Source: a virus
DNA: 36,857 nt
IMG/VR virus record: IMGVR_UViG_3300026253_000002
Coordinates: 1 to 36,857 of that record
Reading direction: 5' to 3' (one strand)
Shown here: positions 15,201 to 36,857 of the stretch, piece after piece
Position numbering within the stretch: position 1 is the first letter of the stretch
Layout of the letters: each line of letters begins with the position of its first letter
Notes under the pieces: model-generated
The model's database searches: none
Seen by the model: only the letters and a program-made list of their open reading frames with translations
Told to the model about the DNA's origin: nothing
Made by a program: the position numbers and the translations under genes

Positions 15201-17939
15201 TCTTCGTACGGTTGCTCTTTTATACGACCACTAGTGACACACCCAGCATCTGGATCTAGCTATACGTGGGGCGACTCAATCAACCCGGGTATTACGTCCA
15301 ACCAAATGGCTCAATTTTCTAATGCTTATGTTGGGGTTGGTAGTCCAGCTAATGAAAACTGGGCCGCCATGAGTAACGGTAGAGTGGGTAACTACGGTCC
15401 GGGCCTTGGATACTGGTTTTCACAGTTTTCAATGCCGGCATATCTTTTCTGGAACCAGCAAGACCGCCTTGATAACTTTTTTATAGATCAAGCATCTCAA
15501 TATAGTCATGATGGGACGGGTGTAGATGGTGCTGGGACATTTGGGAAGCTACCAAATCCTAAGGCAACTAGTGCTAATAATATTCCTGGAGTACATTCGA
15601 GTGGGACCTCTACTGATGGAACATGGGTAGGAGTGCCTTTGGAGGAGAGAGGTCAAGGCGTTTATAATAACAATAGAACAATAGATATTTCCTGGGCTGG
15701 AATTGGTCCTGGATATGAAGATAATTGGAAGAGATCTTGGAAGGGTTCTTCGGGTGCGAATAAGGATGGACCTAATTGGAATGGGAGACTTTCCAGTGGT
15801 GCTTCGGATGGATGGGTAAGTGGGCCAAGTGGGGACGCTAGAAAGTTTATTGATAAATTAGCACATGTTGGGACTAGGTTTAAGTGGGCTGAAGATCCTG
15901 ATGATATAATATATACGGTTAAGGGCGTTAGGTCTAGATGGGGGATTAAAAATTATAAAAATGATGCCTGGAGCGCGTTGGAATTGGTGAATCAGGGTCT
16001 CTTTCCTTACATACCTAACGATACTTGGGATTATAATAAAGAACAACTGAGGGCTAATTGCCAAAGGCAAAGATGGTCACTTAATTTAGATAAGGAGTTA
16101 GGACAAGGGCCAGCGGGATATCATCCATTAAACTCTCCAGATGCATCTGTACCGGGTTTACGCCACGATGGAACTAATACTCATCAGATACAGTTGTTGG
16201 ATCCATTTACAGATGAAGATGATAATTACTTCATAGACAACCCTGCGATATTCGAAACAGAACCCACAGAAGACGTTGGTTTAGATATATATTATGAGGC
16301 TGGTAGGGATAACCCTATCGATATTAATGAAAAAACAAACGAACAGTTTGCGCCTATAAATAGTACCTTTTGGAATAGCAATACTTTAACCTCTCACACC
16401 GTTACTAGTTGGAGTGATAGGACGGTAACATTCACTCCAGCTTTTGGAGCGGCCGCGGGCTTATCTCAATATGATGCTATTAGGTTTACACGTCCTGATA
16501 GAAGTGTTATACAGGCATTTGTAGATTCTGGTGGGGGTAATAGTGCAACCACATTAACTATATTTGGGGATAGTAAAGATTTTGGTTTTGTTGGTGGTGA
16601 ATCACTAAGACCATGCTTTAGACCTATTCAGTTGAGTTGGCATAATTGTTATTCGTTTGGAAATGGAGTGGAGTCAGATAGAATTAGAGACGATTATAAT
16701 GCTGTAACCGTAGATAACGGTGTAAAAGCATCGTCCACTTTAAATGAACCATATAAAGAAGAACACAGAAAATCAGGTTTAATATACTCTGGAATATATA
16801 ATTCTACAAGTGGTGTTAATAGTTTAAACCAATTTATTCAAGGAGAGAAGATTACTAAAGATTTGAATCCATCATATGGAAGTATTCAAAAGTTGTTTAC
16901 TAGAAACACTGATTTAGTTACCCTTTGTGAAGATAAGATTTTAAAAGTAAGTGCTAATAAAGATGCCTTGTTTAATGCTGATGGTAAACCTCAGTTGATA
17001 GCTACAGATAAAGTATTGGGACAAACTATACCTTTTACTGGCGATTGGGGTATAAGTACTAATCCAGAATCTTTTGTGTCGGAATCATATAGAGCTTACT
17101 TTACAGACAGAACTAGAGGTGTTGTTTTAAGATTATCTCAAGATGGATTAACACCTATATCAGATCTTGGTATGAAAGATTGGTTTGCAGACAATTTAAG
17201 AATACAAAACTATGTTAGCAGTAGTCATCCAATAAAAACTTTTGGATCTTGGGATGATAAGAAAGAAGAGTATAATCTTACTGTAGTGAATTATTGGGAT
17301 GCTGGTAGACAAAAGAAATTTACAACTTTGAGTTTTAGTGAGAAAACAAAAGGTTGGATTAGTTTTAAATCTTTTCATCCGGAAAGTGGAGTTAGTTTAA
17401 ATAACGAGTACTATACATTTAAAGACGGGAACTTACATCAACATCATGACAGTGATTCGGCGAGTGCTTCCACTAGTTATAATACTTTTTATGGAGACAA
17501 AACAAATTCAAGTATAACATTTTTAATGAACGATGATCCAGGAAGTATTAAGAGTTTTAACACTATGAATTACGAGGGTTCACAAGCTAAGATTACAGCT
17601 ATGATTACTGCATCGCCAACTGATGCTGCTGGAAACACATTGACCAATCTTAGTGATGGCGAATACTATAACTTAAATGCTAAAGATGGTTGGTATACAA
17701 CTCTCATAAGAACAGATAAGCAAACTGGAGATAATATAGAGTTTAAAGAAAAAGAAGGAAAGTGGTTCGGTGTTATGAAAGGAGAGGAAACAACTTTGAA
17801 TAATTTAGATACAGAAGAGTTTTCAGTACAAGGAATAGGTATGGCGGTGTTAGATCATAGTGATCCTGACGCAGAGGGTGAAGGTAAAACTACAATTAGA
17901 GAGTGGCATGAAAGTAGTACTGGTACTAATTGGGATTAA
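12279..17939 (+). CDS. Tail nozzle / stabilisation protein (P22 gp10-like), with large insertion
   Basis: A 1886-residue protein. The N-terminus, TFASGRMNKDLDERLVPAGE then YRDAMNIQV, matches the start of phage stabilisation proteins that form the tail nozzle (P22 gp10 class; related nozzle or muzzle proteins in crAss-like phages). A beta-propeller-like body follows, with DGMMFWVDG, RPWDNVPRFARAQEITGNRL, and later RTRGVVLRLSQDGLTPIS. P22 gp10 is about 470 residues, so this is several times larger. A Gly/Ser/Asn/Trp-rich stretch at about residues 985-1200 (15230-15880) interrupts the core and looks like a separate surface module. The protein closes the tail tube and may contact the host. It is followed by a second beta-rich virion gene. 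Confidence 0.75.
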   Translation: MPELKRTFASGRMNKDLDERLVPAGEYRDAMNIQVATSDGASVGVVSNLLGNTNLTESTVAPGSTCVGSIAHGKEDKIYYLVCGGDAVTTDPVTTKDHTILKDYVIEYDFVTKSYRYVVVDIHKIVTHLNIAGTTSSSYPHIHIPNLGDAAKNITGIRIGMVIEGYIGGVHYTQSDNVTVISIKADVGNNGWNIELSESFVSDQYDLVTFHAPRVLSFHHNNYIDAINIVDGMMFWVDGVDPVFSSEPKKINIARCIRGTGGLEYMVGGGIDGHPAALAAGTLNKFVLFNGENDYFHTRLTADFRGDRLEIVTDGDGGEKTHWLTESNITVIRPRPLTPLILEMSSTEKVRENSSGVSNAVFSTILKGNTGSNWADVLTGDPLPIGTTLANVTFTNAVDFREGDILILTSDEDDGADGIFTDHEVRVKVIVGCPVGLGGAPDVIQTSGYTLEVMAIDSGIAGTDQLWYVKLEQTAPLFETKFPRFSYRYKYEDGEYSTFAPWSEIAFMPGEYDYYPKKGHNLGMINNLRNLKLKQYFVEDSLRPRDVIEVDILYKESGKPNVYSVKTIKHGDGSPNWPEQTHERGEYELETEIIHAVLPSNQLIRPWDNVPRFARAQEITGNRLVFGNYIQNYNVASYVGMKLKDPEIEISLWSDEADFDDLDSTKKSIKTMRTYQVGVVFSDKYGRETPVLGSQKKGGIKIEKLYSAKWNKLEVKLKTPPPPWAETYKFFIKETSNEYYNLAMDRWYNAEDGNIWLSFPSSERNKVTDETFLILKKAHGTDVPVTDLAKYKVLAIKAEAPDFIKIDKKSLGVMYNGGPGFGDQIGNSGGGFPVPDSRTIEINRGSFTVAFGSVAGSGPNGTETIGKLLSGGTVVKIKMFGPSDTSKAYEIVKIQANANDTVITIDGKFGDDMAFTSTNETYATRIDGLGIEVITEIPENKPEFDGRFFVKIYKDLVLQSHVMSRIKETDFVITSSYGCSFIRPLVTHPASGSSYTWGDSINPGITSNQMAQFSNAYVGVGSPANENWAAMSNGRVGNYGPGLGYWFSQFSMPAYLFWNQQDRLDNFFIDQASQYSHDGTGVDGAGTFGKLPNPKATSANNIPGVHSSGTSTDGTWVGVPLEERGQGVYNNNRTIDISWAGIGPGYEDNWKRSWKGSSGANKDGPNWNGRLSSGASDGWVSGPSGDARKFIDKLAHVGTRFKWAEDPDDIIYTVKGVRSRWGIKNYKNDAWSALELVNQGLFPYIPNDTWDYNKEQLRANCQRQRWSLNLDKELGQGPAGYHPLNSPDASVPGLRHDGTNTHQIQLLDPFTDEDDNYFIDNPAIFETEPTEDVGLDIYYEAGRDNPIDINEKTNEQFAPINSTFWNSNTLTSHTVTSWSDRTVTFTPAFGAAAGLSQYDAIRFTRPDRSVIQAFVDSGGGNSATTLTIFGDSKDFGFVGGESLRPCFRPIQLSWHNCYSFGNGVESDRIRDDYNAVTVDNGVKASSTLNEPYKEEHRKSGLIYSGIYNSTSGVNSLNQFIQGEKITKDLNPSYGSIQKLFTRNTDLVTLCEDKILKVSANKDALFNADGKPQLIATDKVLGQTIPFTGDWGISTNPESFVSESYRAYFTDRTRGVVLRLSQDGLTPISDLGMKDWFADNLRIQNYVSSSHPIKTFGSWDDKKEEYNLTVVNYWDAGRQKKFTTLSFSEKTKGWISFKSFHPESGVSLNNEYYTFKDGNLHQHHDSDSASASTSYNTFYGDKTNSSITFLMNDDPGSIKSFNTMNYEGSQAKITAMITASPTDAAGNTLTNLSDGEYYNLNAKDGWYTTLIRTDKQTGDNIEFKEKEGKWFGVMKGEETTLNNLDTEEFSVQGIGMAVLDHSDPDAEGEGKTTIREWHESSTGTNWD

Positions 17940-22523: not shown

Positions 22524-25500
22524 ATGTCTCAAAGAGAACTAAAAATAATAGAACAAGGTAGAGCTATTGGTTGGTCAGACGACGAATGTCTTGCAGCTGT
22601 TAGGCAAAATAGACTTAATGTTGAAAACGCTAGACTACAAGTTATTCGGGAGGAAGAGAAGGCAGAGTTGATAAAGGAAAAACAAATTACTGTAGACACG
22701 AAGAAAAAAGTTTACAGTGATGAAAGCATGCCTGGTAACGATTACTTTTTAGAAGATGGGGATTGGGTATTTTATGACGATGACAATAAACGTATAGATG
22801 TAACAGAGGGTAGTGTTGGCCAAAGTCTATCAAAGAAGTATGAAGATAAAACAGTCGACATAACGGATTACGACAAGATAATTGCTCCAAGTGCTATTTG
22901 GACTGACCATGAGGGTAAAGATAAAAAACTAAAAGACAACATACTAGATTATAGGGATGATGATTTTGTTGCAAATACTTTAACTAGAGAATATGGTGAA
23001 GACTTTGAGTTCGTCGATTCTGGTAGTGACATGATAACGGTTACTAGTAAAGAGACGGGATTGACTCACGAATTTGAAACTAATTTTGTAGGGGGAGGTG
23101 GAAAGAAAGAAATAAAATCTGGTAAGAAATTAATCAAGTGGATGAAAACCCAAAAGTTCGGAGACATGTCGGAGAAAGGAGATGCTGACTATAGAGCTAT
23201 TGAAAATGAGGATGGTGATTTAGAGTGGCATTATGTTGATGAGTTTGGGGATGACGTGAGTATTGTGGAATCAACAAGTACTTTACAAGATTTAAATAAC
23301 AAGTACCCAGAAGCTTTAAATGAAAGCAAGAAACGTTTTGATGGCGTGAATGACTTTAAAGTAGTGAACGGTGAATGGCATGTTAGGAATGAGGATCAAG
23401 AATGGGAAAAAGCAAGCGGCGACATAGCGCTAGAGATGAATGCAATACACGGTTCACCTGAAGAGAAAGAAGAGGATGGGGTAATTTATAACCATGGATT
23501 GGTTCCGCTAAAAGCAGTAAACGCAAAAGAAGCTCTTGTAGGCGAGCATGATAAGAGACAAAACATGGGGATAGACGAGTTCTATGAAACAATATGGATG
23601 CCAAAAAATTATACTAATGGTCCGAGTTGGAAGAATGTTGTAAACGACCTCACACATTTAACAGATGGTAAAGAGGGGAACATGTTTTCAAGGGATTTTG
23701 GTAAGACTCCGTTCATGGAAGAAGAGTACAACAATTATATAAGGCAATCTAAAACTGCTCTAGACAACCACAACGAAATAACTAAAGTTTCAAAAAACTC
23801 TAAAGGCGCTTATAATTGGTATCTCAAAGATTCAGACGAACAAGCAGAAAAATCTTTCGATCAAGAAATCCTTTTAAAGCTAGAGAGTGCTTACTTGAGT
23901 AACGAAGTGCCAATGCTACCTCAAATGGTTGATGGGGAGTACGAAGAGGTACAGGGTACTAAAGACGATATTTGGATACACACAGATGAGGATGGGAAAT
24001 CATATACATATGGGGATTTTGACTACAAAACAAATGTCTCTGATGCTGTAACAAAAGGGTTGGAAACGAGCTCTTTGAAAGATGAGTATCAAAACGAAAA
24101 CACAACAGCATCTAAAAAAGAGGAACTGAAGGGAGAGATACTATTAGCGCAACCTGAGTGGACTAAATTTTATGATGAAGAAGATATCGATGGTTGGGAG
24201 GATTTAGATATAAATGATTTTAATGATTTTGTAAAAAACCACCCTTCTTTTAAACACTTAGATGTTACCACTTATGGAGCAACGGATGACAGCAGGATTT
24301 ATTATGGAGACTATGGGGCTGCTGAATTACAGTGGGACGAAGATAAAAAGAAACATTATTGGAGCGGAGGAGCTGGAGAAGGATCTGTACATACCATAGA
24401 CAAACTTAAAGCCCAAGTACTTACGGAATATCTTAATACAAGTATTAGCAAAAATAGGGATGTTTATGATACTTATGAGCAAGCAGGTACTTTTGACAAT
24501 CTAAACCTACTAAATGAATACGCGAGTAATGTTAGTAAGTTAGATGCGGAGTTAACACCTATAACCGAGGAATATGAAAAACTAAAAAAAGGTATTGACG
24601 ACGGCACTATAAAGAGTAGTAAATCAAACTTAAGTAAGTTAAATGACTTAGGTATAGAGATAAATAGTATATCTGAAGTTATAAACTTCAACGTAGACAA
24701 CTACAATGGTATTGCTAATGACAAAGCCAATATGGTTCTTTTTGATGGTTATAGAGATCTTAAGAAAAATAATGCGGCTCTTAGTAAATCATTTGGTAAG
24801 CTGATAGACCCTAAGAGTACTAACAAAATAAATGTAATTGCGTCTAAGGAATACAACGAAAGATTAGACGAGCAGGAGAGGTTATTGAAATTGGAGAGTG
24901 GTCACTTGGGGTGGCAAGCGGCTGGTGTTATAGAGGGGTTGTGGAGTGCCGTCGTGGGTGGTGTTACTGGAATAGTTGGTTTGGCAGAGGCTTACACACC
25001 AGAGCTTTGGTCGGATACTAGTGGGAAAGATAAAGCGCAAGTAATGAACAAGTGGTCAAGCCTTTCAGAACAGATGACGTGGAACGCTGTTGCGGATGGT
25101 AATATGATAGACCCTGAAACTGGTGAATTGAATTGGTCTGCGGTTCCTTCGCAAGTAGCGCCTGTAGTTTTAGATATGTATTTGATGACCCAAACAGGTG
25201 GGGCGTTTGGAGCAATAAAAACAGGGGCATTTGCACTCGGAAGAAAGGGGGCTAAGTATACCGCTAAGGCATTAAACCTAACTGGTAAGTCTACTAAGTT
25301 TATGGAGAGAGTAGCCCCTATAGGTAGGAGGTTAAATAAAATATCTACAGCCAAAAACCTAAAGCAAATGGGGAATCAATTTACTGGTGGTATGATGATT
25401 ATATTGCCTAAAAATATTGAAGAAGCCGTAATGCAGGTTGATGAAGATTTCTCATATGAGGATGCATTAAACTCTGCTTTTTATAAAACAATTACAGAGT

Positions 25501-28500
25501 CTGCTATTGAGATGATCAATCCAGATGTTAAGTTTTTAAAAGGTATGTCAAAGTTTAAGGCTGGAAGTAAGTACGGAGACTTAAGGCTTTGGAACCCTAA
25601 GGTTAAGGGTTTTAAAAACAACGCATATAGAATGTTAAATATATTTGGTCAGAATCTTAGGAACGTTCCTTCTGAAATACTTGAGGAAAATCTCCAAGAA
25701 CTAACCAATGGTATATGGAACGGTTATTACAACCAAACTAAAGGCACGGATTTTCACATGTCAACAGCGGATGATTATAAGGCTTTGAATGTATTAACAC
25801 CGCTATCAGTGTTAACGGGTGGTTTCATTAGGACTAGAGGGTTTAGGAAAGGTGGTGTTAGTTCTAGTATGTATCAAGCAGCAGTGGAGAACTATGAGGA
25901 GTTTAATGCGGAAATGCTAGCTGCTCACGAGGGTGGAAAACTTGATTACGTGGATGACGCTGGAAACACAGTGTCTTCTTATCCTGAAATCATGGAGCAA
26001 GTAAACCAATATGTTACGGCTAAAGCAAACATACCTTATGAAGAATACTCTCAGATGAGCAACTCTCAAAGACAAGAGACATTGAGTTTATTAGTTCAAA
26101 AAGCGCAGCTAGAAGCAAAGATTCAAAACTATGACGAGGTTGGTGATGTTGACTCGAGCAGTAAAGACCACGGGGGAATGACCGCAGGTGAAGGGTTGAA
26201 TCAATTAGAAAGAGATTTAAAAAACGTGGAAGGTAGGCTGAAGAAGGTTGCCAACGGTGTTCAGACTGAATTTATGAGTTTGGAAGAACAAAGGACTGAT
26301 GTAGAGTTAATGAAGCTGAAGGCTCAGTGGAAGGGGGAAGAACTAGGTTCTCAGAAAAAAGCTGATCTAACTAAGAAGATAAGAGAACTAACTAGAAGTC
26401 GAAATGAACTTAGGGATAAGGGTCATCTATATGAGTTTAACGGAAAAGGATATAATAACGCTGCTGAATTTATTGAAGCTGTTAAAAATGCGAAGAAGAA
26501 TGGTTACTTCAGTGGTGGACATTCTAGGTCTAAAATACGTATAAGTAATAAAGTAGATTCCGCTAAAGCAGAGTACATAGGTAATATGGTTAATAAATTA
26601 ACCGGTAGCCAAACATATAAAGGTGGGGAGATATTGATGAATAGTAATGATATTACTGAAGCTGAGGGCTTTACTCATCAAAAAGAAAACAGAGGTAAAA
26701 CTTTAGAGGATTACAAAGAGGAGCTAAAGCAAGAGTTGTTAAAAAACCCAAAGCAACAAGATGTAGACGTTCTTAACAATCTAAGAAATGTTAAAAAGTA
26801 TTTAGAACTACGAGATAGAGGTTACGCTCATAATCCAAACTTTGGAGGGATGGTTATGTTTGGTTCTGATGATGTTGATCTCAGAGCTGTGGATGAAATT
26901 TCTTTAACAGAGAAGATTAAAGCTATAAGTGAAGTTACTGGAGAAGCTGGTATTATGACAGTACCTATGACTCAAGAGCAAATTGCTGATAATTATTTAG
27001 ATCCCAATGGTGAAATTGACAATCCAGATGCAATAAGAGCCAATGCGTTTATGATGCCTATATTAAATGAGGAGACTGGGAAAATGGAACCAGCCCTAAT
27101 CATTAACACAACAATGGCTTTAAAAAACAAAGCTTTAACAGCACCAACTCACGAGCTTTTACACGCTGCTATATTCGCTGTTATTAATGGTCCTATCAGG
27201 GTGATAGAAAAAGATGGTATAAAATATGAAACGCACTTAACCAAAAAAGGAACTAAACTGTTAAAAGGGTTTATAAAGTTACTACCTAAGGCTCATTTAG
27301 ATATATTGAATGCTGACTTAGAAAGTAGAGGATACTTTAATAAAAACGAGGATGGAGATATAATAGAGCCTTTTGAGATTTATGCAGAGGAATACCTTAA
27401 TCATTACCATGACTTGGTGGTTAAACACAAGAAGATACCTTTAAACGCACCAGATACAAGAAACACTTTAAAAAAAATAGCAGACTACTTTGTTAGCTTC
27501 TGGAAGCAAGAAACAGAGGAGGAACTACACGGTGTGATGGAAGGAAAGTTAGATACTCCTGAGAAGCTGCTTCAGTTCATGAGAGGTTTTAACCAGCAGG
27601 CATTAAACAATAAATTTACTGACCAAGTTAAAAGTATGGTAGCTACCTCTAAAGGACATTTTGGAGAGGTAATAAAGAGTGATGTAGATGATGGAACAGT
27701 GCAACTGTCTAGAGAGATAGAATTAGAAGAAGAAGTAACAGAAGAAGAGTATACGGAAACTAAGGCTGATCTATTTTCTAAGTCAAACAAGAAGTTCTTA
27801 GAGGCTTTAGAAATGTATGGTATAGAAAATGCAGGACTCTTGTTGAAATACAATACACAAGAAGAACTAGATGAATTAAAAAAGAAAGATAAAGATACTT
27901 ACAATAAAATAATAGTAGTTAGAGAAAAATGGGATAACTTAAAAGATAGAGATAAGTTGGTTGTAGGATATATAATAGGTGATACTTGGAGGCCTTTTGC
28001 TAGCAGTAAATTTAGGACTAGATATGAAGGAGTTCCTGGTTACGCTCAGTTTGGTAGTGGTATCTTAGATGTATTAACAACTGGTATTGAAGTTGGACAA
28101 AATGGTCTCCCATACTTAGTAAAGACTTGGGATCCGTCTAAAAGAAAGTTAACATCACATATATATGGTGAGCTTAATAAAAGAATTCCGCATGTTGTTG
28201 GTCTTCCTCAGTTCGCTGGTTTTGGAGAATTAATGGTTAGGGATTCTGAGACTGGTGGTGAATTTGATTTCTCTAAACTATCGAGCGAAGATATTGCTAA
28301 TAGTATTTTAGATAGTTATAGTATTGACGAAGCTATTGAGATAGTTGAGGCTAAGAAAAAGAATGGTGAGATTACAGGAGAACAGGCTGAGTTTATATCT
28401 GACAAGATAAATAATATAAAAAATGATAATGTTAGAAAAGAGTTTGAAACTGGTAAAGTTAGAAAGATACTAGGAATTAAATCTCCACAAGAAATTCAAA

Positions 28501-31500
28501 ATGAAATTGCAAAAGCTAAAAATGAAACTGAGATCGCGATCTTAGAAAAGCAATTAAAAGAAGCTTACCTATATGAAAAAGTATTAAATACTGTTTTGGC
28601 TGAGGTTGATATTAATACTTTAAAATCTGAGCTAGCAGATGTAAAAACTCAAAAGAAATTTAGACAACGTATAGAAAAAGGTTTTGTAAAAGAATTAAGA
28701 AACGAGGTTAAGAAAATTATTGGTACTCAAAACTCTCCTCAGTTTAAAGAATTTTTAAAGAATAACAAGAGTAAGTTAATAGATTTGTTAGCTATTAAAT
28801 ACAAAAACAGATTTCCTACACTAACTAGGGATGGTGGTAGAATGAGCACAGACCAATCACTAGAATCACAAACATCGGAAAAAGGTTCTTTTGTAGCAAA
28901 TGAAAAAGGCGGTAACAGACTTTGGTTATTAGAGAGCTTTACGCCTAGTCAATTTGAAGATCTATTTGTTAAGGGTGTTGATGGTAAAGGTAGAGACACT
29001 CAATATAAATCCTTAGTAAATGCTTTGGCTAACGAGCTAGGATTAGATGCAGTGTTCCAGGCTATTGGAGATAAAAACGCTGATACTTATGGCACTCAAT
29101 TAACTGAGGCTATAAAAAGAAACCCTACAACAATGTTTAGTAAGGGCACTAGGATTAGCGAAGATATTAGCGAGAACGATGCTAATCTAATTAATGATGC
29201 TTTCGCTGGAGATAATGTTTTAGAGAGAGATTGGGAGAAGCTAAGAGATATTGCTTTAATAAAAGGATTTACTTGGGGCACTACAAAATGGAGGAAGACA
29301 GTGGGAGATGCTGGTATACACGAAGGTACTATAAGACTTATGGAGATCATGGGTATTGATAGTAGATTTAAAGAGGATGATGCTGGTGGTTTTAAAACTC
29401 CTTTCAACAACTGGACAGCTAAGAATATAAAGAATCTAAATCGTGTTAGTGACATAGTAAACTTATACAATCAGAATAATAACAATAGCGCTGAGGGTAG
29501 AAAACAATACACTAAGGGAATATTTAAATTATTAGACAGTCTTCCGCCAAGGTTAGTTGCAGTTCTTGGCAAGACATACTTTGGCTTGAAGGGTAAAAAT
29601 TATAGTCTTGTAGAGAAAGATAGGTATAACGAGTTATCTAAAAAGTTTGATGATAAAATAAAACAAGAAGATAATAGTGATCTTGATTTCAATGTAGAGG
29701 CTATTAAGATAGTGAATTCAGGGTTTGGTATAGCTAAAGATATTAGGGGTATACAATTCTTAAATACTTCAATAGCAAATAAAAAAGCTTTGATGGGGGA
29801 GATGGGGATAAATGACAAGATAGATGCCTTGAATGTAAATAACCCATTGGTTCTTAACTTTATAAATAACGAAATAATAAAGATACTGTCAAATGCTAGT
29901 GTGGACACCGAAACTAAAGCCGGTATACTTAGGTATCACGAGTCCGCAACTAATAATACTAAGGCTCAAAGAGGATTAACAACGATAAAAAGCATACAGT
30001 GGCATACAGGCTCACAAGCTCCTTATATAGGTATTGCTACTAAGGATTTTAAGTTCCAAAATAATAGTTATAAAAAAGGAGACGTGGTTGGGATTGCTTC
30101 CAATACAGAGGCAAACACTAAAAATCTCAAAAATGTAAAGCTAAACGAATCCCATCCTGATTACAAGGTTGCTGAAGAATATGCTATGAACTACGTTAGC
30201 AAACAAGCTACTGTTATTCTCTCCACGAGAGGAGGCACGAAGGGTGTTAAGAAAGCTAGAAAAAAAATAGAAACTGGGGATATAAGTTTAGATAACTATC
30301 TAAGTGATTTATTTGAAAGTAGAATAGCAGAACACTTGAGAGTCAAGGGAGAACATGCTAAGCCTAGTGCTAATGTTCAAAAGGAGATTTTGCAAGAACA
30401 ATTACTAGCTGTTAATAAAATTTTATCTAATCCTAACAATACTCAAAAAGCGTTAAAGGAATTTAACAAAAATTATAACAATATAGTAGCGGAATATACC
30501 CAAGCATTTGGTGCTGAAATAAATTCATTTGCTCAAGATCAAGCGCTAGGTCCCACTAGTACTGCTAATATAGATAGGATGATAGTTTTAGAGAAGGTTA
30601 AAGGTTTAGATTTAAATTCTTTCCATGGGGTTGATTTGAGTAGTAGAGATTTACGGGGACGTAGTTTAGTCAACAGCTTGGTTTCAGAATCAATTGAAAT
30701 AAATAAAATTGTTGAGAGTTTAAATTTACCTAGTGATAAACAAATAGCGATAGCCGAAAAAGTTAAAAAAGCCATGATATTCTCTAGGGCAACAAACGAA
30801 TCTAAAGGAATAAGTGTTTGGGATTTTGATGACACTTTAGCTAGAACAAAATCTGGTGTTAGATATAAAATGCCGAATCCTACAGGTGTCCCTCAACCAG
30901 GTAGGAAAGTTATATTCTTAGCCGGCGGAGCTGGTAGTGGAAAATCAAATGTTGTATTAAAACTTGGATTAGAAAATCAGGGCTTTAAAATAGTTAACTC
31001 TGATATATCACTTGAGTGGTTAAAGAAGAATCATGGCTTACCAGCTGATATGAAAGATCTAACATCGGAACAATTATCTATGTTAGGTAAGTTACAGCAC
31101 CAAGCTAGAGGTGTAGCGAGAAGAAAAATGATGAAATACCAAGGAGATGGTAATGGTATTATTGTTGATGGAACTGGTGGATCTTTAAATGTAATGAAGA
31201 AACAAGTACAAGAGTTTAAAGATAAAGGCTACGATGTTCAAATGATATTTGTGAATACCTCTGAGGAAGTTGCTGTTGATCGAAATGCTAAAAGAAAAGA
31301 ACGAACATTAAAAGAAAGTATAGTAAGAAAGAACCACGCGGCTGTTCAAGAGAATATACCAGGATTTAAAGAGTTGTTTGGAGATAACTTCACCGAAATA
31401 AATACAGACTTTTTAGGTATGGATGATGCTATGCCCGCTAGTAATGTAAAAGATATAAACAAGTTTACTAAAAGTTATATCAACGGTAGATTAGATGCTG

Positions 31501-34500
31501 GAGAATTTGCAGACAAAGGAGCCGAACTAAAAGCACAAGGAGCAGAATTTGATTTCTCAGAATTTAATATTATCGTGGAAGGAGAGCAAGGACCATTCTT
31601 TAAAAAAGCCATAGATAGAGCTAAGAAGTTTGGAACAAAACATCAATATGTTTTAACGGCTAGACCGTCGGCATCAGCACCACATATACATGAATTTTTA
31701 AAGTCTCAAGGTTTAAACATACCGTTAGAAAACATTACTGGATTAGAAAACTCTACAGCGGAAGCTAAAGCTCTGTGGATATTAGAAAAAGTATCTGAGG
31801 GTTATAATGATTTCTACTTTGCAGATGATGCCATGCAAAATGTTGATGCTGTTAGGAGTGTATTAGAGCATGTTGATGTTAAGTACAAAGTCCAACAAGC
31901 TAAGTATAAATTTAGTAAAAGTGCTGACGTAGATACAGCTTTGGAATCTGTAAAAGATATTAACAAATTAGGTTTACCTGGCACTTATAGCAGTATTAAG
32001 TTTTCTAAAGCTCACAGATCTGAATACGAAAACACTATAGCAAAACATCGTCCTGATTTAGTTAAAGAAGGATTAGTTTCTCAAACTGTAGATAGCATGT
32101 TTATCTTTATAGATAGTTTAAATATTCCTGCTGATAAGAAAAGGAAGTACGAAAGAATAACTACTAAGTGGTTAGCGACAAGTAATATAAAACTATTAGA
32201 AGATAGGTTCAAAATAACAGATGCCGTTAATTTAGCAGAAAGATTTAAATTAGACTTATTCTCTTATAACAATCCTAATGAGATTATAGAAGCATATGCT
32301 GGTAAGGTTAAAAAGAAAGTTCTTAATCCAAATAAAATAATTGAATTTTCTCCAAGCGTAACCACTAGTAAAGAACACGGTGTTACTGAGCACGAAGTTG
32401 ACAATACTAAAGAGGGTCAACAATCTGTTAGAGACATTATAGATTCTCATTGGGGTGAGAACTCAAATCCTTGGTGTATTACACAAGCTAGAGATGGTAA
32501 GTTAACAGAGGAAGCCTTTAGTAACTGGGAGCATTATAGCGATGGACCTAAAAGTATTGTATTTCAAGACGGTAAGTTATTAGCTTTCTACGCTAACGGG
32601 CAATATTGGGATAGAATGGATAGTGCTACAGACGCTCCCGTTGTGCAAATTAAAGAAGGCAGAGTTACAAAGAAGGTAGAACTTGTACCTATAGGTAATG
32701 GCAAGGTTGATGAATTTGTTATGGAAACTCGAACGGTAAGTAAAGATGGTAACACTGTTACAACAGAAGTTCTACATACTCGTCATGGGAGTTATGCCGA
32801 GGGTACTAAAATTATAGAAAACAGAATTAACGGTATAACTGTTAAGTCTACACGGGCCAATGCAGATGGAGCCACTCAAGAAATAATAAACTTTGATAAA
32901 AGTGGTAAGGCAACTAACAATATTTCTTTTGATACAGATGGATCCACAACAGCTATTAATCGTTACGGCCAACCATTTGGTGAAATGAGCGTACTTGATA
33001 TCATAACGAAAAAAGGAGACTTACTATCGCATGAAATTACTGACGGTGATGTAAGTTATTATCACGGTCAAATTAGTTTAGCTGCTCAAGGTATTAAAAG
33101 TGTCGGTGGTATTACTACCACGGAAATAGGTTGGAAGATGCCAAATAATTTAGACTTACAAGACTTTGTGACAACCTCTCCTAACGGTGAGATAAGAGCT
33201 GATTTAAAAAAGATTTTAGAAGTAGATCCTGATGCGAAAGGAATTCAAGGTGATAAGTACAAAAGCGAAGTTTCTTTGATGTTTAGTAAGGGCGCTAGTG
33301 AAATAGCTGGTGATGTATTTAATAACATATTAGAAGAGACAACAGGTATGAGTGCAGGGAAAATTTTCTCTGATGCTCAAGCTAAAATAAGAGGTAAGAA
33401 GGCTAATGAGTTTAAGTTTTGGATACCTCCATCTGCGGAAGATTTTAAAGGATTGATTTATCAATTCTTAGGTAAAGGAAAAGAAGGTGAAGCTCAGTTG
33501 AAATTCTTTGAACAAGCTTTATTCAGGCCTTTCGCTAGAGCTACTAATGAAATTAACACCTCAAAACAAGCAGCTGTTAATGATTATATTTCTTTAGTAA
33601 AAGGTTTTCCAGGAATAAATAAAGCTTTAAGACAAGAACTTGAAAGAGGCTGGACAATGGATCAAGCTGTTAGAGTTTATGTATGGAATAAAGCTGGGCA
33701 CACAATTCCTGGTTTATCTAATAGAGACTTGAACTATTTATTAGAGCAAGTAGAAAAGAATGTTTTTGTTAAAGCATTTTCAGATGCACTGGCTAAAGTA
33801 TCGAGAAAGAAAGACGTTGCACCTAGTGAATACTGGACTGTTGAAACTATACAGTCAGATATTATGGATGACGGATATCTTGGGGATGCTAGAGCGGAAC
33901 ACTTGTCTGAGTTTAGTGAGAACAGAGAACAGATATTCGGTAAGTGGGAAAATGGAAAATTAGTTGGACCTAACATTAATAAGATAGAAGCTATATACGG
34001 AACTGAATTTAGAGATGCTTTAGAGGATATCTTACATAGAATGGAGTTCGGTAGAAGTAGACATCAAGGTAGTAATAAAATTGTTAATGCATTTAATACT
34101 TGGGCTAATAATTCAGTTGGGGCAATCATGTTCTTAAACATGCGTTCAGCTGTCTTACAAACTATATCTGCTATTAATTATTTGAACTGGTCAGACAACA
34201 ATCCATTAAAGGCTGCTGCAGCATTCGCTAATCAACCACAATTTTGGAAAGACTTCTCTATGATATTTAACTCTGACATGATGAAGCAGAGACGTGCTGG
34301 TCATCAAAGAGGTGTTAACGAATCAGAGCTTGCTGCTGCTGTGGCTGGGCAAGAGAACAAAGCAAAAGCAGCCTTGGCTTGGTTGTTACAAAAAGGATTT
34401 TTGCCTACACAGATCGCGGATAGTTTTGCTATTGCTTCAGGTGGCGCTTCGTTCTTTAGAAATAGAACCAACACTTATTTAAAGCAAGGCATGACCCAGG

Positions 34501-35615
34501 AGCAAGCTGAAGCCAAAGCTTGGACTGATTTTCAAGAGGTAACAGAAGAAAGCCAACAATCATCTAGAGCTGATTTAATATCACAACAACAAGCAAGTCC
34601 TTTAGGACGATATATCTTAGCTTTTAAAAACACACCTATGCAATATGGTAGGTTAATGAAAAAAGCTTTTCTAGATATTAAGAACGGTAGAGGTGATTTA
34701 AAAACTAATATAGGTAAAATACTATATTATGGAATGATACAGAACTTTATATTTGCGGCTTTACAATCTGCGTTATTTGCTGTAATGGGTAGTGATGATG
34801 AAGACGAGATGGACGATAAGAAAGAAAGAATAATTAATTCTATGTTAGACTCTATTCTTTATGGGTTTGGAGTAGCTGGTACCGCGGTATCTGTTATAAA
34901 AAATGCTATGTTGGAATATGTGAAACAAGAAGGTAAAGGTTGGAATGCTGATCACACTTATACTATATTAAGGTTATTAAGTTTCTCTCCAACAATTGGC
35001 TCTAAGCTTAGAAAAGTATATTCAGCTATACAGACTAAGAAGTTTAATGAGGATATTATGAGTGAGATGAGTTTGTTAGATATAAATCATCCTACATGGT
35101 CTATCATAGGTAATCTAGTTGAGGGAGCAACAAATATTCCTTTAGGCAGAATGATTCAAAAATCCGTAAATGTACAACAAGCACTAAACTCTCATAACGA
35201 AGCATGGCAAAGAGTAGCTTTAATGCTAGGCTGGAACACCTGGGATTTAAAAATTAAAGATCAAGATATATTAGATTTAAAAGAGGTGGTTAAAGATAAG
35301 AAGAAGATAGAGAATAAAAAGAAGAGTAAGGAGAATAGGAAGAAAAAGGAGAAGGAGCAGGAAAAAGAGAATGAAGCTATTATTAATCAAAACAAAAAGA
35401 AAAGTAGAAAAGATGGTATCTGTTCCGCTGTTAGTAAAGGGGGTGAAAGATGTAAAACTAAAGTTGTAAAAGGTAAACTCTTCTGTACTGTCCACGAGAA
35501 AGTAGTTCAAAGTAAAAGTGGTAGAGAAGTTCAATGTAGAAAAATAAAGTCTGATAAGGATAGATGTAGAATGAAGACAAAATCTAAGAGTGGGTTTTGT
35601 TATTATCATGATTAA
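22524..35615 (+). CDS. Giant polyvalent internal virion (ejected) protein
   Basis: 4363 residues. In order: a helical start; acidic modules with a Trp (W81, W235, W285, perhaps W484, W604); a hydrophobic segment at about 799-820 and a second near 875-905; a zinc metallopeptidase motif HELLH (1543-1547) with E1622/E1623 downstream; helical regions of unknown role to 2750; a HAD phosphatase (D2767, D2769, T3045, K3082, D3101/D3102) whose cap position holds a P-loop kinase (2801-2808); an NPWC domain (about 3310-3370) and Gly/Asn-rich repeats; a C-terminal region with hydrophobic segments near 4063-4087 and 4111-4130; a Lys/Glu coiled coil; and two CX9CX10CX2H modules (4300-4324, 4338-4362). Position and size suit a T7 gp16-like packaged protein that is ejected with the DNA. 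Domain calls are by motif only. Confidence 0.8.
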   Translation: MSQRELKIIEQGRAIGWSDDECLAAVRQNRLNVENARLQVIREEEKAELIKEKQITVDTKKKVYSDESMPGNDYFLEDGDWVFYDDDNKRIDVTEGSVGQSLSKKYEDKTVDITDYDKIIAPSAIWTDHEGKDKKLKDNILDYRDDDFVANTLTREYGEDFEFVDSGSDMITVTSKETGLTHEFETNFVGGGGKKEIKSGKKLIKWMKTQKFGDMSEKGDADYRAIENEDGDLEWHYVDEFGDDVSIVESTSTLQDLNNKYPEALNESKKRFDGVNDFKVVNGEWHVRNEDQEWEKASGDIALEMNAIHGSPEEKEEDGVIYNHGLVPLKAVNAKEALVGEHDKRQNMGIDEFYETIWMPKNYTNGPSWKNVVNDLTHLTDGKEGNMFSRDFGKTPFMEEEYNNYIRQSKTALDNHNEITKVSKNSKGAYNWYLKDSDEQAEKSFDQEILLKLESAYLSNEVPMLPQMVDGEYEEVQGTKDDIWIHTDEDGKSYTYGDFDYKTNVSDAVTKGLETSSLKDEYQNENTTASKKEELKGEILLAQPEWTKFYDEEDIDGWEDLDINDFNDFVKNHPSFKHLDVTTYGATDDSRIYYGDYGAAELQWDEDKKKHYWSGGAGEGSVHTIDKLKAQVLTEYLNTSISKNRDVYDTYEQAGTFDNLNLLNEYASNVSKLDAELTPITEEYEKLKKGIDDGTIKSSKSNLSKLNDLGIEINSISEVINFNVDNYNGIANDKANMVLFDGYRDLKKNNAALSKSFGKLIDPKSTNKINVIASKEYNERLDEQERLLKLESGHLGWQAAGVIEGLWSAVVGGVTGIVGLAEAYTPELWSDTSGKDKAQVMNKWSSLSEQMTWNAVADGNMIDPETGELNWSAVPSQVAPVVLDMYLMTQTGGAFGAIKTGAFALGRKGAKYTAKALNLTGKSTKFMERVAPIGRRLNKISTAKNLKQMGNQFTGGMMIILPKNIEEAVMQVDEDFSYEDALNSAFYKTITESAIEMINPDVKFLKGMSKFKAGSKYGDLRLWNPKVKGFKNNAYRMLNIFGQNLRNVPSEILEENLQELTNGIWNGYYNQTKGTDFHMSTADDYKALNVLTPLSVLTGGFIRTRGFRKGGVSSSMYQAAVENYEEFNAEMLAAHEGGKLDYVDDAGNTVSSYPEIMEQVNQYVTAKANIPYEEYSQMSNSQRQETLSLLVQKAQLEAKIQNYDEVGDVDSSSKDHGGMTAGEGLNQLERDLKNVEGRLKKVANGVQTEFMSLEEQRTDVELMKLKAQWKGEELGSQKKADLTKKIRELTRSRNELRDKGHLYEFNGKGYNNAAEFIEAVKNAKKNGYFSGGHSRSKIRISNKVDSAKAEYIGNMVNKLTGSQTYKGGEILMNSNDITEAEGFTHQKENRGKTLEDYKEELKQELLKNPKQQDVDVLNNLRNVKKYLELRDRGYAHNPNFGGMVMFGSDDVDLRAVDEISLTEKIKAISEVTGEAGIMTVPMTQEQIADNYLDPNGEIDNPDAIRANAFMMPILNEETGKMEPALIINTTMALKNKALTAPTHELLHAAIFAVINGPIRVIEKDGIKYETHLTKKGTKLLKGFIKLLPKAHLDILNADLESRGYFNKNEDGDIIEPFEIYAEEYLNHYHDLVVKHKKIPLNAPDTRNTLKKIADYFVSFWKQETEEELHGVMEGKLDTPEKLLQFMRGFNQQALNNKFTDQVKSMVATSKGHFGEVIKSDVDDGTVQLSREIELEEEVTEEEYTETKADLFSKSNKKFLEALEMYGIENAGLLLKYNTQEELDELKKKDKDTYNKIIVVREKWDNLKDRDKLVVGYIIGDTWRPFASSKFRTRYEGVPGYAQFGSGILDVLTTGIEVGQNGLPYLVKTWDPSKRKLTSHIYGELNKRIPHVVGLPQFAGFGELMVRDSETGGEFDFSKLSSEDIANSILDSYSIDEAIEIVEAKKKNGEITGEQAEFISDKINNIKNDNVRKEFETGKVRKILGIKSPQEIQNEIAKAKNETEIAILEKQLKEAYLYEKVLNTVLAEVDINTLKSELADVKTQKKFRQRIEKGFVKELRNEVKKIIGTQNSPQFKEFLKNNKSKLIDLLAIKYKNRFPTLTRDGGRMSTDQSLESQTSEKGSFVANEKGGNRLWLLESFTPSQFEDLFVKGVDGKGRDTQYKSLVNALANELGLDAVFQAIGDKNADTYGTQLTEAIKRNPTTMFSKGTRISEDISENDANLINDAFAGDNVLERDWEKLRDIALIKGFTWGTTKWRKTVGDAGIHEGTIRLMEIMGIDSRFKEDDAGGFKTPFNNWTAKNIKNLNRVSDIVNLYNQNNNNSAEGRKQYTKGIFKLLDSLPPRLVAVLGKTYFGLKGKNYSLVEKDRYNELSKKFDDKIKQEDNSDLDFNVEAIKIVNSGFGIAKDIRGIQFLNTSIANKKALMGEMGINDKIDALNVNNPLVLNFINNEIIKILSNASVDTETKAGILRYHESATNNTKAQRGLTTIKSIQWHTGSQAPYIGIATKDFKFQNNSYKKGDVVGIASNTEANTKNLKNVKLNESHPDYKVAEEYAMNYVSKQATVILSTRGGTKGVKKARKKIETGDISLDNYLSDLFESRIAEHLRVKGEHAKPSANVQKEILQEQLLAVNKILSNPNNTQKALKEFNKNYNNIVAEYTQAFGAEINSFAQDQALGPTSTANIDRMIVLEKVKGLDLNSFHGVDLSSRDLRGRSLVNSLVSESIEINKIVESLNLPSDKQIAIAEKVKKAMIFSRATNESKGISVWDFDDTLARTKSGVRYKMPNPTGVPQPGRKVIFLAGGAGSGKSNVVLKLGLENQGFKIVNSDISLEWLKKNHGLPADMKDLTSEQLSMLGKLQHQARGVARRKMMKYQGDGNGIIVDGTGGSLNVMKKQVQEFKDKGYDVQMIFVNTSEEVAVDRNAKRKERTLKESIVRKNHAAVQENIPGFKELFGDNFTEINTDFLGMDDAMPASNVKDINKFTKSYINGRLDAGEFADKGAELKAQGAEFDFSEFNIIVEGEQGPFFKKAIDRAKKFGTKHQYVLTARPSASAPHIHEFLKSQGLNIPLENITGLENSTAEAKALWILEKVSEGYNDFYFADDAMQNVDAVRSVLEHVDVKYKVQQAKYKFSKSADVDTALESVKDINKLGLPGTYSSIKFSKAHRSEYENTIAKHRPDLVKEGLVSQTVDSMFIFIDSLNIPADKKRKYERITTKWLATSNIKLLEDRFKITDAVNLAERFKLDLFSYNNPNEIIEAYAGKVKKKVLNPNKIIEFSPSVTTSKEHGVTEHEVDNTKEGQQSVRDIIDSHWGENSNPWCITQARDGKLTEEAFSNWEHYSDGPKSIVFQDGKLLAFYANGQYWDRMDSATDAPVVQIKEGRVTKKVELVPIGNGKVDEFVMETRTVSKDGNTVTTEVLHTRHGSYAEGTKIIENRINGITVKSTRANADGATQEIINFDKSGKATNNISFDTDGSTTAINRYGQPFGEMSVLDIITKKGDLLSHEITDGDVSYYHGQISLAAQGIKSVGGITTTEIGWKMPNNLDLQDFVTTSPNGEIRADLKKILEVDPDAKGIQGDKYKSEVSLMFSKGASEIAGDVFNNILEETTGMSAGKIFSDAQAKIRGKKANEFKFWIPPSAEDFKGLIYQFLGKGKEGEAQLKFFEQALFRPFARATNEINTSKQAAVNDYISLVKGFPGINKALRQELERGWTMDQAVRVYVWNKAGHTIPGLSNRDLNYLLEQVEKNVFVKAFSDALAKVSRKKDVAPSEYWTVETIQSDIMDDGYLGDARAEHLSEFSENREQIFGKWENGKLVGPNINKIEAIYGTEFRDALEDILHRMEFGRSRHQGSNKIVNAFNTWANNSVGAIMFLNMRSAVLQTISAINYLNWSDNNPLKAAAAFANQPQFWKDFSMIFNSDMMKQRRAGHQRGVNESELAAAVAGQENKAKAALAWLLQKGFLPTQIADSFAIASGGASFFRNRTNTYLKQGMTQEQAEAKAWTDFQEVTEESQQSSRADLISQQQASPLGRYILAFKNTPMQYGRLMKKAFLDIKNGRGDLKTNIGKILYYGMIQNFIFAALQSALFAVMGSDDEDEMDDKKERIINSMLDSILYGFGVAGTAVSVIKNAMLEYVKQEGKGWNADHTYTILRLLSFSPTIGSKLRKVYSAIQTKKFNEDIMSEMSLLDINHPTWSIIGNLVEGATNIPLGRMIQKSVNVQQALNSHNEAWQRVALMLGWNTWDLKIKDQDILDLKEVVKDKKKIENKKKSKENRKKKEKEQEKENEAIINQNKKKSRKDGICSAVSKGGERCKTKVVKGKLFCTVHEKVVQSKSGREVQCRKIKSDKDRCRMKTKSKSGFCYYHD

Positions 35616-36111: not shown

Positions 36112-36857
36112 ATGAAATGGATAGGACAACATATTTGGGGCCTAATATCTAGGTTTCGTAGTGACGTATATTTAGAGGCACTTAGTACTTCGTCTGAGAC
36201 AAGTGCTTTAGTTGTTGATTCAAATGGAAAGGTAACAAAAAATTCTTCATTTACCGGTGCAGATGGTGCCGACGGTGAGGATGGCGCTGATGGAACCAAT
36301 GGAACCAATGGAGCGGCTGGTGCAACTGGCGATACTGGTGCAACTGGCGATACTGGTGCAACTGGTACAGCTGGAGCAACTGGAGCTGATGGAGCAGCTG
36401 GAGCTGATGGTGATGATGGTGCAGCTGGTGCAGCTGGAGCTGATGGAGCAGCTGGAGCTGATGGTGATGATGGTGATGATGGGGCAACATGGCTAACGGG
36501 TTCGGGAGATCCAGCGGGTGGGACAGGAGTTGTTGGAGACTTCTATTTAAATTCGACCTCTGACGAATGGTTTGAAAAAACTGGAGCTAGCACATGGACT
36601 TCTCGCGGTGACTTTACTGGTGCTGCAGGACCACAAGGTACAACAGGTACAACAGGTGCAACAGGTACAACAGGTGCAAATGGTACAAATGGTACAAATG
36701 GTACAAATGGATCTGATGGAGCTGATGGTGCTGATGGAGCTGATGGTGCCCAAGGAACACAAGGAATACAAGGAATTCAAGGTGTAACGGGGGCAACCGG
36801 AACGACTGGAGTACAAGGAATACAAGGAAATCAAGGTGATAAGGGGGGATTGTTATA
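36112..36857 (+). CDS. Collagen-like tail fibre protein (3' truncated)
   Basis: An ATG at 36112 opens a frame that stays open to the right edge of the window (248 codons visible). The N-terminus MKWIGQHIWGLISRFRSDVY, followed by a LVVDSNGKVTK segment, resembles the virion-attachment end of marine phage fibres. From 36253 it runs as Gly-X-Y collagen repeats (GADGADGEDGADG, GATGDTG, GDDGAAGAAG), interrupted at about 36487-36615 by a small module with GDFYLNSTSDEWFEKTG. A second collagen block (GTTGTTGATG, GTNGTNG, GIQGIQG) continues to the edge. Such repeats form trimeric rods that hold a receptor-binding tip, which must lie beyond the window. Confidence 0.85.
   Translation, partial: MKWIGQHIWGLISRFRSDVYLEALSTSSETSALVVDSNGKVTKNSSFTGADGADGEDGADGTNGTNGAAGATGDTGATGDTGATGTAGATGADGAAGADGDDGAAGAAGADGAAGADGDDGDDGATWLTGSGDPAGGTGVVGDFYLNSTSDEWFEKTGASTWTSRGDFTGAAGPQGTTGTTGATGTTGANGTNGTNGTNGSDGADGADGADGAQGTQGIQGIQGVTGATGTTGVQGIQGNQGDKGGLL
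36253..36486 (+). repeat. Collagen-coding tandem repeat block 1
   Basis: Imperfect 9- and 18-base units encode Gly-X-Y triplets, with near-identical DNA copies such as the two GGTGCAACTGGCGATACT units and the repeated GGAGCAGCTGGAGCTGATGG units. Near-perfect DNA repetition suggests recent slippage or unequal exchange, so copy number probably varies between strains. Confidence 0.85.
36616..36845 (+). repeat. Collagen-coding tandem repeat block 2
   Basis: A second run of Gly-X-Y units built from other DNA words: GGTACAACA repeats, a run of GGTACAAAT repeats, GGAGCTGATGGTGCTGAT, then GGAATACAAGGAATTCAA. Its codon and residue choice (Thr, Asn, Gln) differs from block 1 (Ala, Asp), which suggests the blocks arose or were acquired separately. 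Confidence 0.8.

Follow-up and report, generated by a model that had tools for sequence, protein, structure and literature searches.

The window, meaning the whole analyzed stretch of 36,857 nt from the viral record IMGVR_UViG_3300026253_000002, contains a giant open reading frame (ORF) of 4363 amino acids (aa) on the plus strand (22524..35615). In this marine phage, the giant ORF is the last long gene downstream of the portal and muzzle structural genes, a position that matches that of Elemovirus gp21, a 3694-aa protein annotated as a "structural protein"; a blastp comparison of the ORF product with gp21 revealed no similarity. A Pfam scan gave matches that were restricted to one region of the 4363-aa protein. 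It is fairly probable that the giant protein constitutes virion cargo, and the position and size of its gene suggest that it may be delivered into the host together with the DNA.

Closer inspection of the ORF revealed a HAD domain with a P-loop kinase nested within it. The first part of the HAD domain (aa 2762-2784, 30807..30875; this and all following features lie on the plus strand) comprises the first strand, which bears motif I DFDDT (D2767, the candidate nucleophile Asp, and D2769), and short strands behind it; the AlphaFold model places strands E18-23, E29-31, and E34-40 in this part. The full motif, WDFDDT, starts at aa 2766 (30819-30836). The inserted kinase, which is of the PNK/zeta type according to Pfam and structure matches, spans aa ~2785-2989 (30876..31490). 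It contains the P-loop GGAGSGKS (aa 2801-2808, 30924-30947), whose K is invariant among relatives, the VNSD motif (from aa 2824, 30993-31004) with D2827 as the likely general base, the VDGTGGS motif (aa 2881-2887, 31164-31184), in which DGTG is invariant, and the Arg lid RNxxRxER (aa 2920-2927, 31281..31304), a set that places the insert among PNK-type P-loop kinases with an Asp general base and an Arg lid. The second HAD part (aa 2990-3125, 31491..31898) is modeled as the remainder of the Rossmann-like core and carries motif II VLTARP (from aa 3043, 31650-31667; T3045), motif III AEAK (from aa 3079, 31758-31769; K3082), and motif IV YFADDA (from aa 3098, 31815..31832, with YFADD at 31815-31829; D3101 and D3102). 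Within motif II, R3047 is in register with Arg213 of T4 Pnkp via the S/T-x-R pattern. The window sequence follows the motif order of the HAD superfamily (DxDx[T/V], T/S, K, DD), which is conserved among relatives, and every motif named in the earlier note was found where that note had placed it.

Across the 4363 aa, the pattern DxDx[T/V] is found at just three positions, 78, 145, and 2767, and therefore a second motif I downstream of the kinase was ruled out. We consider it almost certain that a single HAD domain is split behind motif I by an entire P-loop kinase. An insert between HAD motifs I and II occupies the C1 position, and the previous assignment of the kinase to this cap position held on the basis of the single motif I and the confident fold. 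P-type ATPases carry their ATP-binding domain at the C1 position, and typical C1 caps are small modules that govern substrate specificity. In contrast to the usual C1-capped HADs, the cap slot of the phage HAD holds a complete and exchangeable second enzyme.

Fold and sequence matches of the two halves

AlphaFold predicted the nested stretch with a pLDDT of 90.8 and a pTM of 0.79. In the fold search with the window model, kinase matches filled the list. The best match was the kinase of Clostridium thermocellum Pnkp (Z of 17.2 and rmsd of 2.8 over 167 aa, model residues 46..240), while lower scores were obtained for the T4 Pnkp kinase 1ly1 (Z of 14.2), zeta toxin 1gvn (Z of 14.1), and PezT (Z of 13.3). 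The HAD fold match comes from L065, a natural relative with an ART-like insert, whose model reached a pLDDT of 90.9. Its HAD core closes around the insert and best matched the T4 Pnkp 3′-phosphatase (Z of 12.5), with model residues 15..323 superimposed on phosphatase residues 157..298 at an rmsd of 2.3 over 126 of 142 aa. Pnkp1 came next (Z of 12.1), whereas non-Pnkp entries scored 9.8 at most. The L065 HAD fold also aligned to many HADs across the insert; Foldseek by itself gave a weak signal for the HAD part (best E of 6e-3). The expected picture of one HAD core enclosing an inserted domain is supported by the confident model of the nested stretch together with the L065 core, which forms one fold across its insert.

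At the sequence level, the insert matched Zeta_toxin (E value of 6e-13, 49.1 bits versus a cut-off of 22.3) and AAA_33 (5e-11) in Pfam, both above the cut-off, and its best sequence match in the PDB was again the C. thermocellum Pnkp kinase (1e-5). The hhalign alignment of the kinase profile with T4 Pnkp ended on Asp35, which was aligned with D2827. The HAD part had no significant Pfam match and was therefore identified from its motifs and its fold. A HAD-centered profile retrieved no HAD in the PDB sequence search, and in a one-to-one comparison the sequence signal between the HAD part and Pnkp was limited to motif I (E of 4e-4). In the PHROGs collection, the two halves matched phrog_505 and phrog_415, both of which are named polynucleotide kinase.

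Both halves resemble the halves of Pnkp, since the best match of the kinase is a bacterial Pnkp and that of the L065 HAD is T4 Pnkp, yet they are nested. The comparison with Pnkp drawn in the earlier note is thus backed by the folds of both halves and by the PHROG names given to each. Among solved structures, T4 Pnkp (PseT) and bacterial Pnkp1 stand closest, or almost closest, to the kinase and HAD folds, and they have the Asp general base, P-loop, Arg lid, DxDxT, S/T-x-R, and DD in common with the nested protein. However, they are small free enzymes in which the kinase is followed end to end by the phosphatase, whereas in the giant phage protein of 4363 aa the kinase sits inside the HAD behind motif I, is optional, and lacks the Arg at position +3 from the general base (NSDISL in the window versus NRDDYR in T4 Pnkp; none of the aligned relatives carries it). 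In C. thermocellum Pnkp, which gave the highest Z for the insert, the phosphatase that accompanies the kinase is a member of another superfamily (PMC4411300); its PDB molecule name is Metallophosphoesterase. A literature search, which covered a minority of subscription papers, turned up no account of a kinase inserted into a HAD.

Relatives and contents of the insertion site

We detected 593 relatives in viral contigs, and because of these hundreds of relatives, chance or an assembly artefact was ruled out as the source of the nesting. The same nesting recurs in other phages, represented by 96 distinct relatives. In 96/96 of them, the kinase has the RNxxRxER lid and the general-base Asp, and the HAD has motif I, the TAR of motif II, and the DD of motif IV; the lid residues R2920, N2921, R2924, E2926, and R2927 fall in columns that are invariant across 37 relatives. 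The last position of the P-loop is S or T in 66 of the 96 nested kinases and G in the other 30 (GKG for GK[S/T]), a replacement that should weaken Mg binding; the window copy reads GKS. Synonymous differences greatly exceeded non-synonymous ones both in the kinase and in the C-terminal HAD part. Plasmids yielded no match, and the only matches among genome contigs were MAG contigs assigned to unrelated taxa, which are probably binned phage. At the limits used, no match to the HAD was obtained in Elemovirus or Cellulophaga phages.

Among 143 distinct relatives, the site was empty in 75 and occupied by a kinase in 46, by an ART-PolyVal-like domain in 11 (these domains fall below the Pfam cut-off), by an HGT-type domain in 3, and by other inserts in 8. 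All inserts lie at one point, about 20 aa past motif I. Because the slot is empty or differently filled in relatives, phages appear to swap catalytic cargo at a fixed site. Protein alignment of L065 and L099 revealed that they hardly differ outside the insert (the HAD cores are 92% alike), while one carries an ART-like domain and the other no insert. The HAD-core tree, from which L104 (spacing of 376, false motif I) and L238 (indel misalignment) were left out, required 21 insert changes; a single kinase clade was rejected (AU p of 0.0008), and the terminase tree forced at least 8 kinase changes. We regard the insertion point as, very likely, an exchange site.

The proposal in the earlier note that nesting would couple the two active sites received no support. 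Many relatives without the kinase keep an intact HAD, the slot accepts ART-like and other domains, and in two relatives (L306 and L308) the kinase lies behind the HAD, end to end, in the order HAD-kinase. The data somewhat favor an arrangement in which the HAD core would be a conserved virion-protein chassis whose C1-cap slot docks exchangeable enzymes, so that the phosphatase is kept and the second injected activity is swapped. Relatives with an empty or differently loaded slot form a natural series for studying the origin and the tolerance of domain insertions, and the series also bears on how phages exchange weapons within giant proteins that are probably the first to enter the host. A term search of the main text of PMC5512222 revealed no HAD core hosting exchangeable inserts.

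Possible roles of the kinase-loaded protein

The best single guess for the kinase-loaded version, which we put forward tentatively, is a predicted function in end healing. The giant cargo protein would enter the host together with the DNA, with its HAD core as an unchanging phosphatase scaffold and the insert as a second activity that could be exchanged without breaking it. The kinase would phosphorylate 5′-OH ends and the HAD would strip 3′-phosphates, with the two sites adjacent to each other on one domain, and the target would be nucleic acid cut by host defense nucleases upon entry. Such a protein would amount to a repair enzyme delivered ahead of any phage gene expression, and hosts with tRNA- or DNA-cutting defenses would offer a direct test. 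Since many relatives lack the kinase, end healing would be an optional trait, and both the 30/96 kinases with GKG and the missing +3 Arg count against it. As an overall explanation, the combination of a split Pnkp-like HAD, an exchange site, virion cargo, and end healing appears evenly balanced between right and wrong.

A partnership with ATP-dependent ligases was dropped as evidence for end healing, as it was unsupported under phylogenetic control. In the first sample of contigs longer than 50 kb, such a ligase was encoded in 18/22 contigs with the kinase versus 3/23 others; it was also found in 17/25 further contigs without a kinase insert, and the raw co-occurrence in contigs above 50 kb was 17/21 versus 18/50. 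The phylogeny-aware test of 8 pairs gave 4.1 in the same and 1.5 in the opposite direction, with a median p of 0.45. The RNA ligase family PF09414 reached the cut-off in only 4/34, with matches overlapping DNA-ligase matches, and PF09511 matched nothing, controls included, and was therefore uninformative.

Close behind end healing in likelihood comes a zeta-type effector kinase. Here, the insert would be cargo that targets the host early in infection, either as a small-molecule kinase (zeta/UNAG-like or of another kind) or as a modifier of proteins, and the HAD would only provide an invariable chassis or serve as a phosphatase with an unrelated housekeeping role. Zeta_toxin is the top Pfam family of the window kinase, the fold of zeta toxin 1gvn is close, one relative is labeled UDP-N-acetylglucosamine kinase in UniProt, and ART-PolyVal-like domains interchange with the kinase at one site. 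Moreover, polyvalent proteins of phages and conjugative elements are described as large multidomain proteins with ARTs, zeta-like kinases, and conflict enzymes that are thought to enter with the DNA (PMC5512222). On the other hand, the C. thermocellum Pnkp kinase scores about 3 Z units above the zeta toxins, and AAA_33 has a better best E value than Zeta_toxin across the 15 members of the insert family. Unlike zeta toxin and PezT (UNAG kinase), the insert is nested in a HAD and fused into a giant phage protein, and no paired antitoxin gene was recognized among the scanned ORFs of the window.

It is improbable that the two enzymes form an opposed pair, acting on a shared small-molecule or nucleotide substrate and together setting its level in a cell that has just been infected. 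Full motif sets in both domains of the 96 nested relatives would suit such a pair, as would their presence on one polypeptide even where the kinase lies behind the HAD. However, at least 75 distinct relatives have the HAD but no kinase, and others combine it with ART-like inserts; the HAD therefore has a role of its own. Least probable of all is a passive or decaying kinase, tolerated in a loop and already inactive in some copies: the GKG P-loops and the many unrelated inserts at the site would fit it, but the other kinase motifs are invariant even in the GKG copies, dN is well below dS, and the window copy retains GKS.

Kinase nested within a HAD domain

The giant open reading frame (ORF) of the window (22524-35615, plus strand, in the ORF listing of the 36,857-base virus record) encodes 4363 amino acids (aa), and all motifs that the earlier note had assigned to a HAD phosphatase with a P-loop kinase at its cap position were found there where described. 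The pattern DxDx[T/V] occurs in this ORF only at residues 78, 145, and 2767, leaving HAD motifs II to IV without an alternative motif I nearby. The insert matched the Pfam families Zeta_toxin (6e-13) and AAA_33 (5e-11); the HAD part had no significant Pfam match. Among PHROGs, the kinase part matched phrog_505 (1e-6) and, separately, the second HAD part matched phrog_415 (2e-4), both named polynucleotide kinase.

The nested stretch was predicted to fold with a mean pLDDT of 90.8 and a pTM of 0.79. The best structural match of its kinase was the Clostridium thermocellum Pnkp kinase (Z 17.2, rmsd 2.8, 167 aa), and further matches included O-phosphoseryl-tRNA kinase (Z 16.3), T4 Pnkp (Z 14.4 for the whole protein, 14.2 for the kinase alone), and zeta toxin (Z 14.1). 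Because kinases occupied the match list of the window model, the HAD part was tested in the natural relative L065, whose insert is of another type (pLDDT 90.9). The L065 core, residues 15 to 323 across the insert, aligned to the T4 Pnkp 3′-phosphatase (Z 12.5, rmsd 2.3, 126 aa); Pnkp1 came next (Z 12.1), and all remaining entries scored 9.8 or lower. This alignment directly supports closure of the core around an insert at this position; for the window protein, closure follows by homology.

A scan of viral contigs yielded 593 relatives, the closest of which keep the same nesting. Across 37 aligned sequences (alignment numbering), the invariant columns were K63, D83, D138-G-T-G, and lid residues R176, N177, R180, E182, and R183 in the kinase, and D23, D25, T27, T301, R303, K338, D357, and D358 in the HAD domain. 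All 96 distinct nested domains carried RNxxRxER, the general-base Asp, and HAD motifs I, II, and IV; the last P-loop residue was S or T in 66 and G in 30. In the latter kinases (L008, L009, L011, L014, L017, and others), GSGKG replaces GSGK[S/T], the remaining kinase motifs being invariant. Synonymous exceeded nonsynonymous change in both the kinase and the C-terminal HAD part. The 50-kb contig 3300025131_000066 (L032, L059) has a pair of giant ORFs, one per strand, and both include a nested HAD-kinase domain.

Exchange at the insertion point

In the next ring of relatives, motifs I and IV are 132 aa apart, compared with 329 to 334 aa when the kinase is present, and these HAD domains have the full motif set without a kinase. 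We pooled 143 distinct complete domains from three scans and recorded no insert in 75, the kinase in 46, a 131- to 139-aa insert in 11, a short insert in 5, an HGTS-carrying insert in 3, a 220-spacing insert in 2, and a Pro-rich one in 1, counts that depend on the query and are not natural frequencies. The 131- to 139-aa type is called ART-PolyVal-like from the two members tested, L058 (E value of 0.001) and L065 (0.006), whose weak matches both fall under the Pfam cut-off. Two additional scans added further short inserts and one novel type, L449. All inserts share one entry point, approximately 20 aa past motif I and ahead of LNAEEFA. The ART-like L065 and the insert-free L099 share 92% of the HAD core and have the same upstream sequence; L050 (HGTS type) and the insert-free L075 share 91%. 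Several of the inserts in this slot are unrelated: L050, L164, and L165 carry the HGTS type, L155 and L231 the 220-spacing insert, L228 the Pro-rich one, L449 a type of its own, and L076, L151, L199, L211, and L418 a short insert of about 45 aa.

With inserts excluded, the tree of 146 HAD cores required 21 changes of insert state, 7 of them involving the kinase (5 forced by well-supported branches). For the kinase, a terminase tree covering 72 genomes required 10 changes (8 forced); gains could not be distinguished from losses. A single clade of kinase bearers on the HAD-core tree was rejected (AU P = 0.00076). In L003, L004, L012, L242, and L244, the HAD cores are 79 to 82% identical to kinase-free cores and the kinases 58 to 67% identical to that of the window, as would be expected if the kinase had moved between HAD backgrounds. 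Nesting is not obligatory for the kinase, because in L306 and L308 the same kinase directly follows an insert-free HAD within one giant ORF. There (contigs 3300030106_005325 and 3300037963_003320, respectively), short VGKYIVDITTKEG / LPDWIVDTTTPKG-type repeats lie on either side of the kinase. In Agrobacterium phage Atu_ph07 (L084, 3221-5557), a 778-aa protein contains a related kinase (tblastn, 1e-16), and its N-terminal part ahead of that kinase looks ART-like by eye. Methylophilales phage Melnitz-3 (L083, 3950-5249) encodes a stand-alone relative of the kinase, and the next gene, a separate one, has a HAD-like DMDGV motif.

Possible function and genomic context

Since its kinase and HAD halves each resemble those of Pnkp, we tentatively favor a nested end-healing enzyme as the most likely single function of the window version. 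Counting against it are the absence of an Arg following the general base, the GKG variants, the optional presence of the kinase among relatives, and an association with ligase that was not upheld by a larger sample and a phylogeny-aware test. The main rival, a zeta-type effector kinase in an exchangeable cargo slot, is favored by the swap with ART-like domains. Zeta-like kinases and ARTs are known in polyvalent phage proteins (PMC5512222), as are kinase-HAD pairs in T4 Pnkp and Pnkp1 (PMC4411300). The nesting of a kinase in a HAD domain, and the occupation of a single HAD cap slot by several unrelated domains, appear to be new as far as a limited literature search shows, which makes the missing prior report weak evidence of novelty.

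Neighbors of the giant ORF encode a terminase large subunit (phrog_6681), a portal (phrog_6547), and an 1886-aa protein (12279-17939) with crassvirus muzzle (crAss_MUZ) domain matches (2e-14, 6e-8), which link these phages to crassvirus-like tails. In one crassvirus, virions with a muzzle contain cargo proteins believed to enter the host by ejection (PMC10172136), and the giant protein is probably cargo of this kind. The window gene order matches that of Elemovirus, in which the final giant gene carries the annotation structural protein; the two giant proteins have no blastp similarity. A collagen-like repeat ORF (36112-36855) lies at the end of the window and runs off the contig. Within the giant ORF, HELLH at residues 1543 to 1547 (window 27150-27164) is a possible metallopeptidase site without a Pfam match, and the C-terminal 64 aa (window 35421-35612) contain two Cys/His-rich, possibly zinc-binding repeats.
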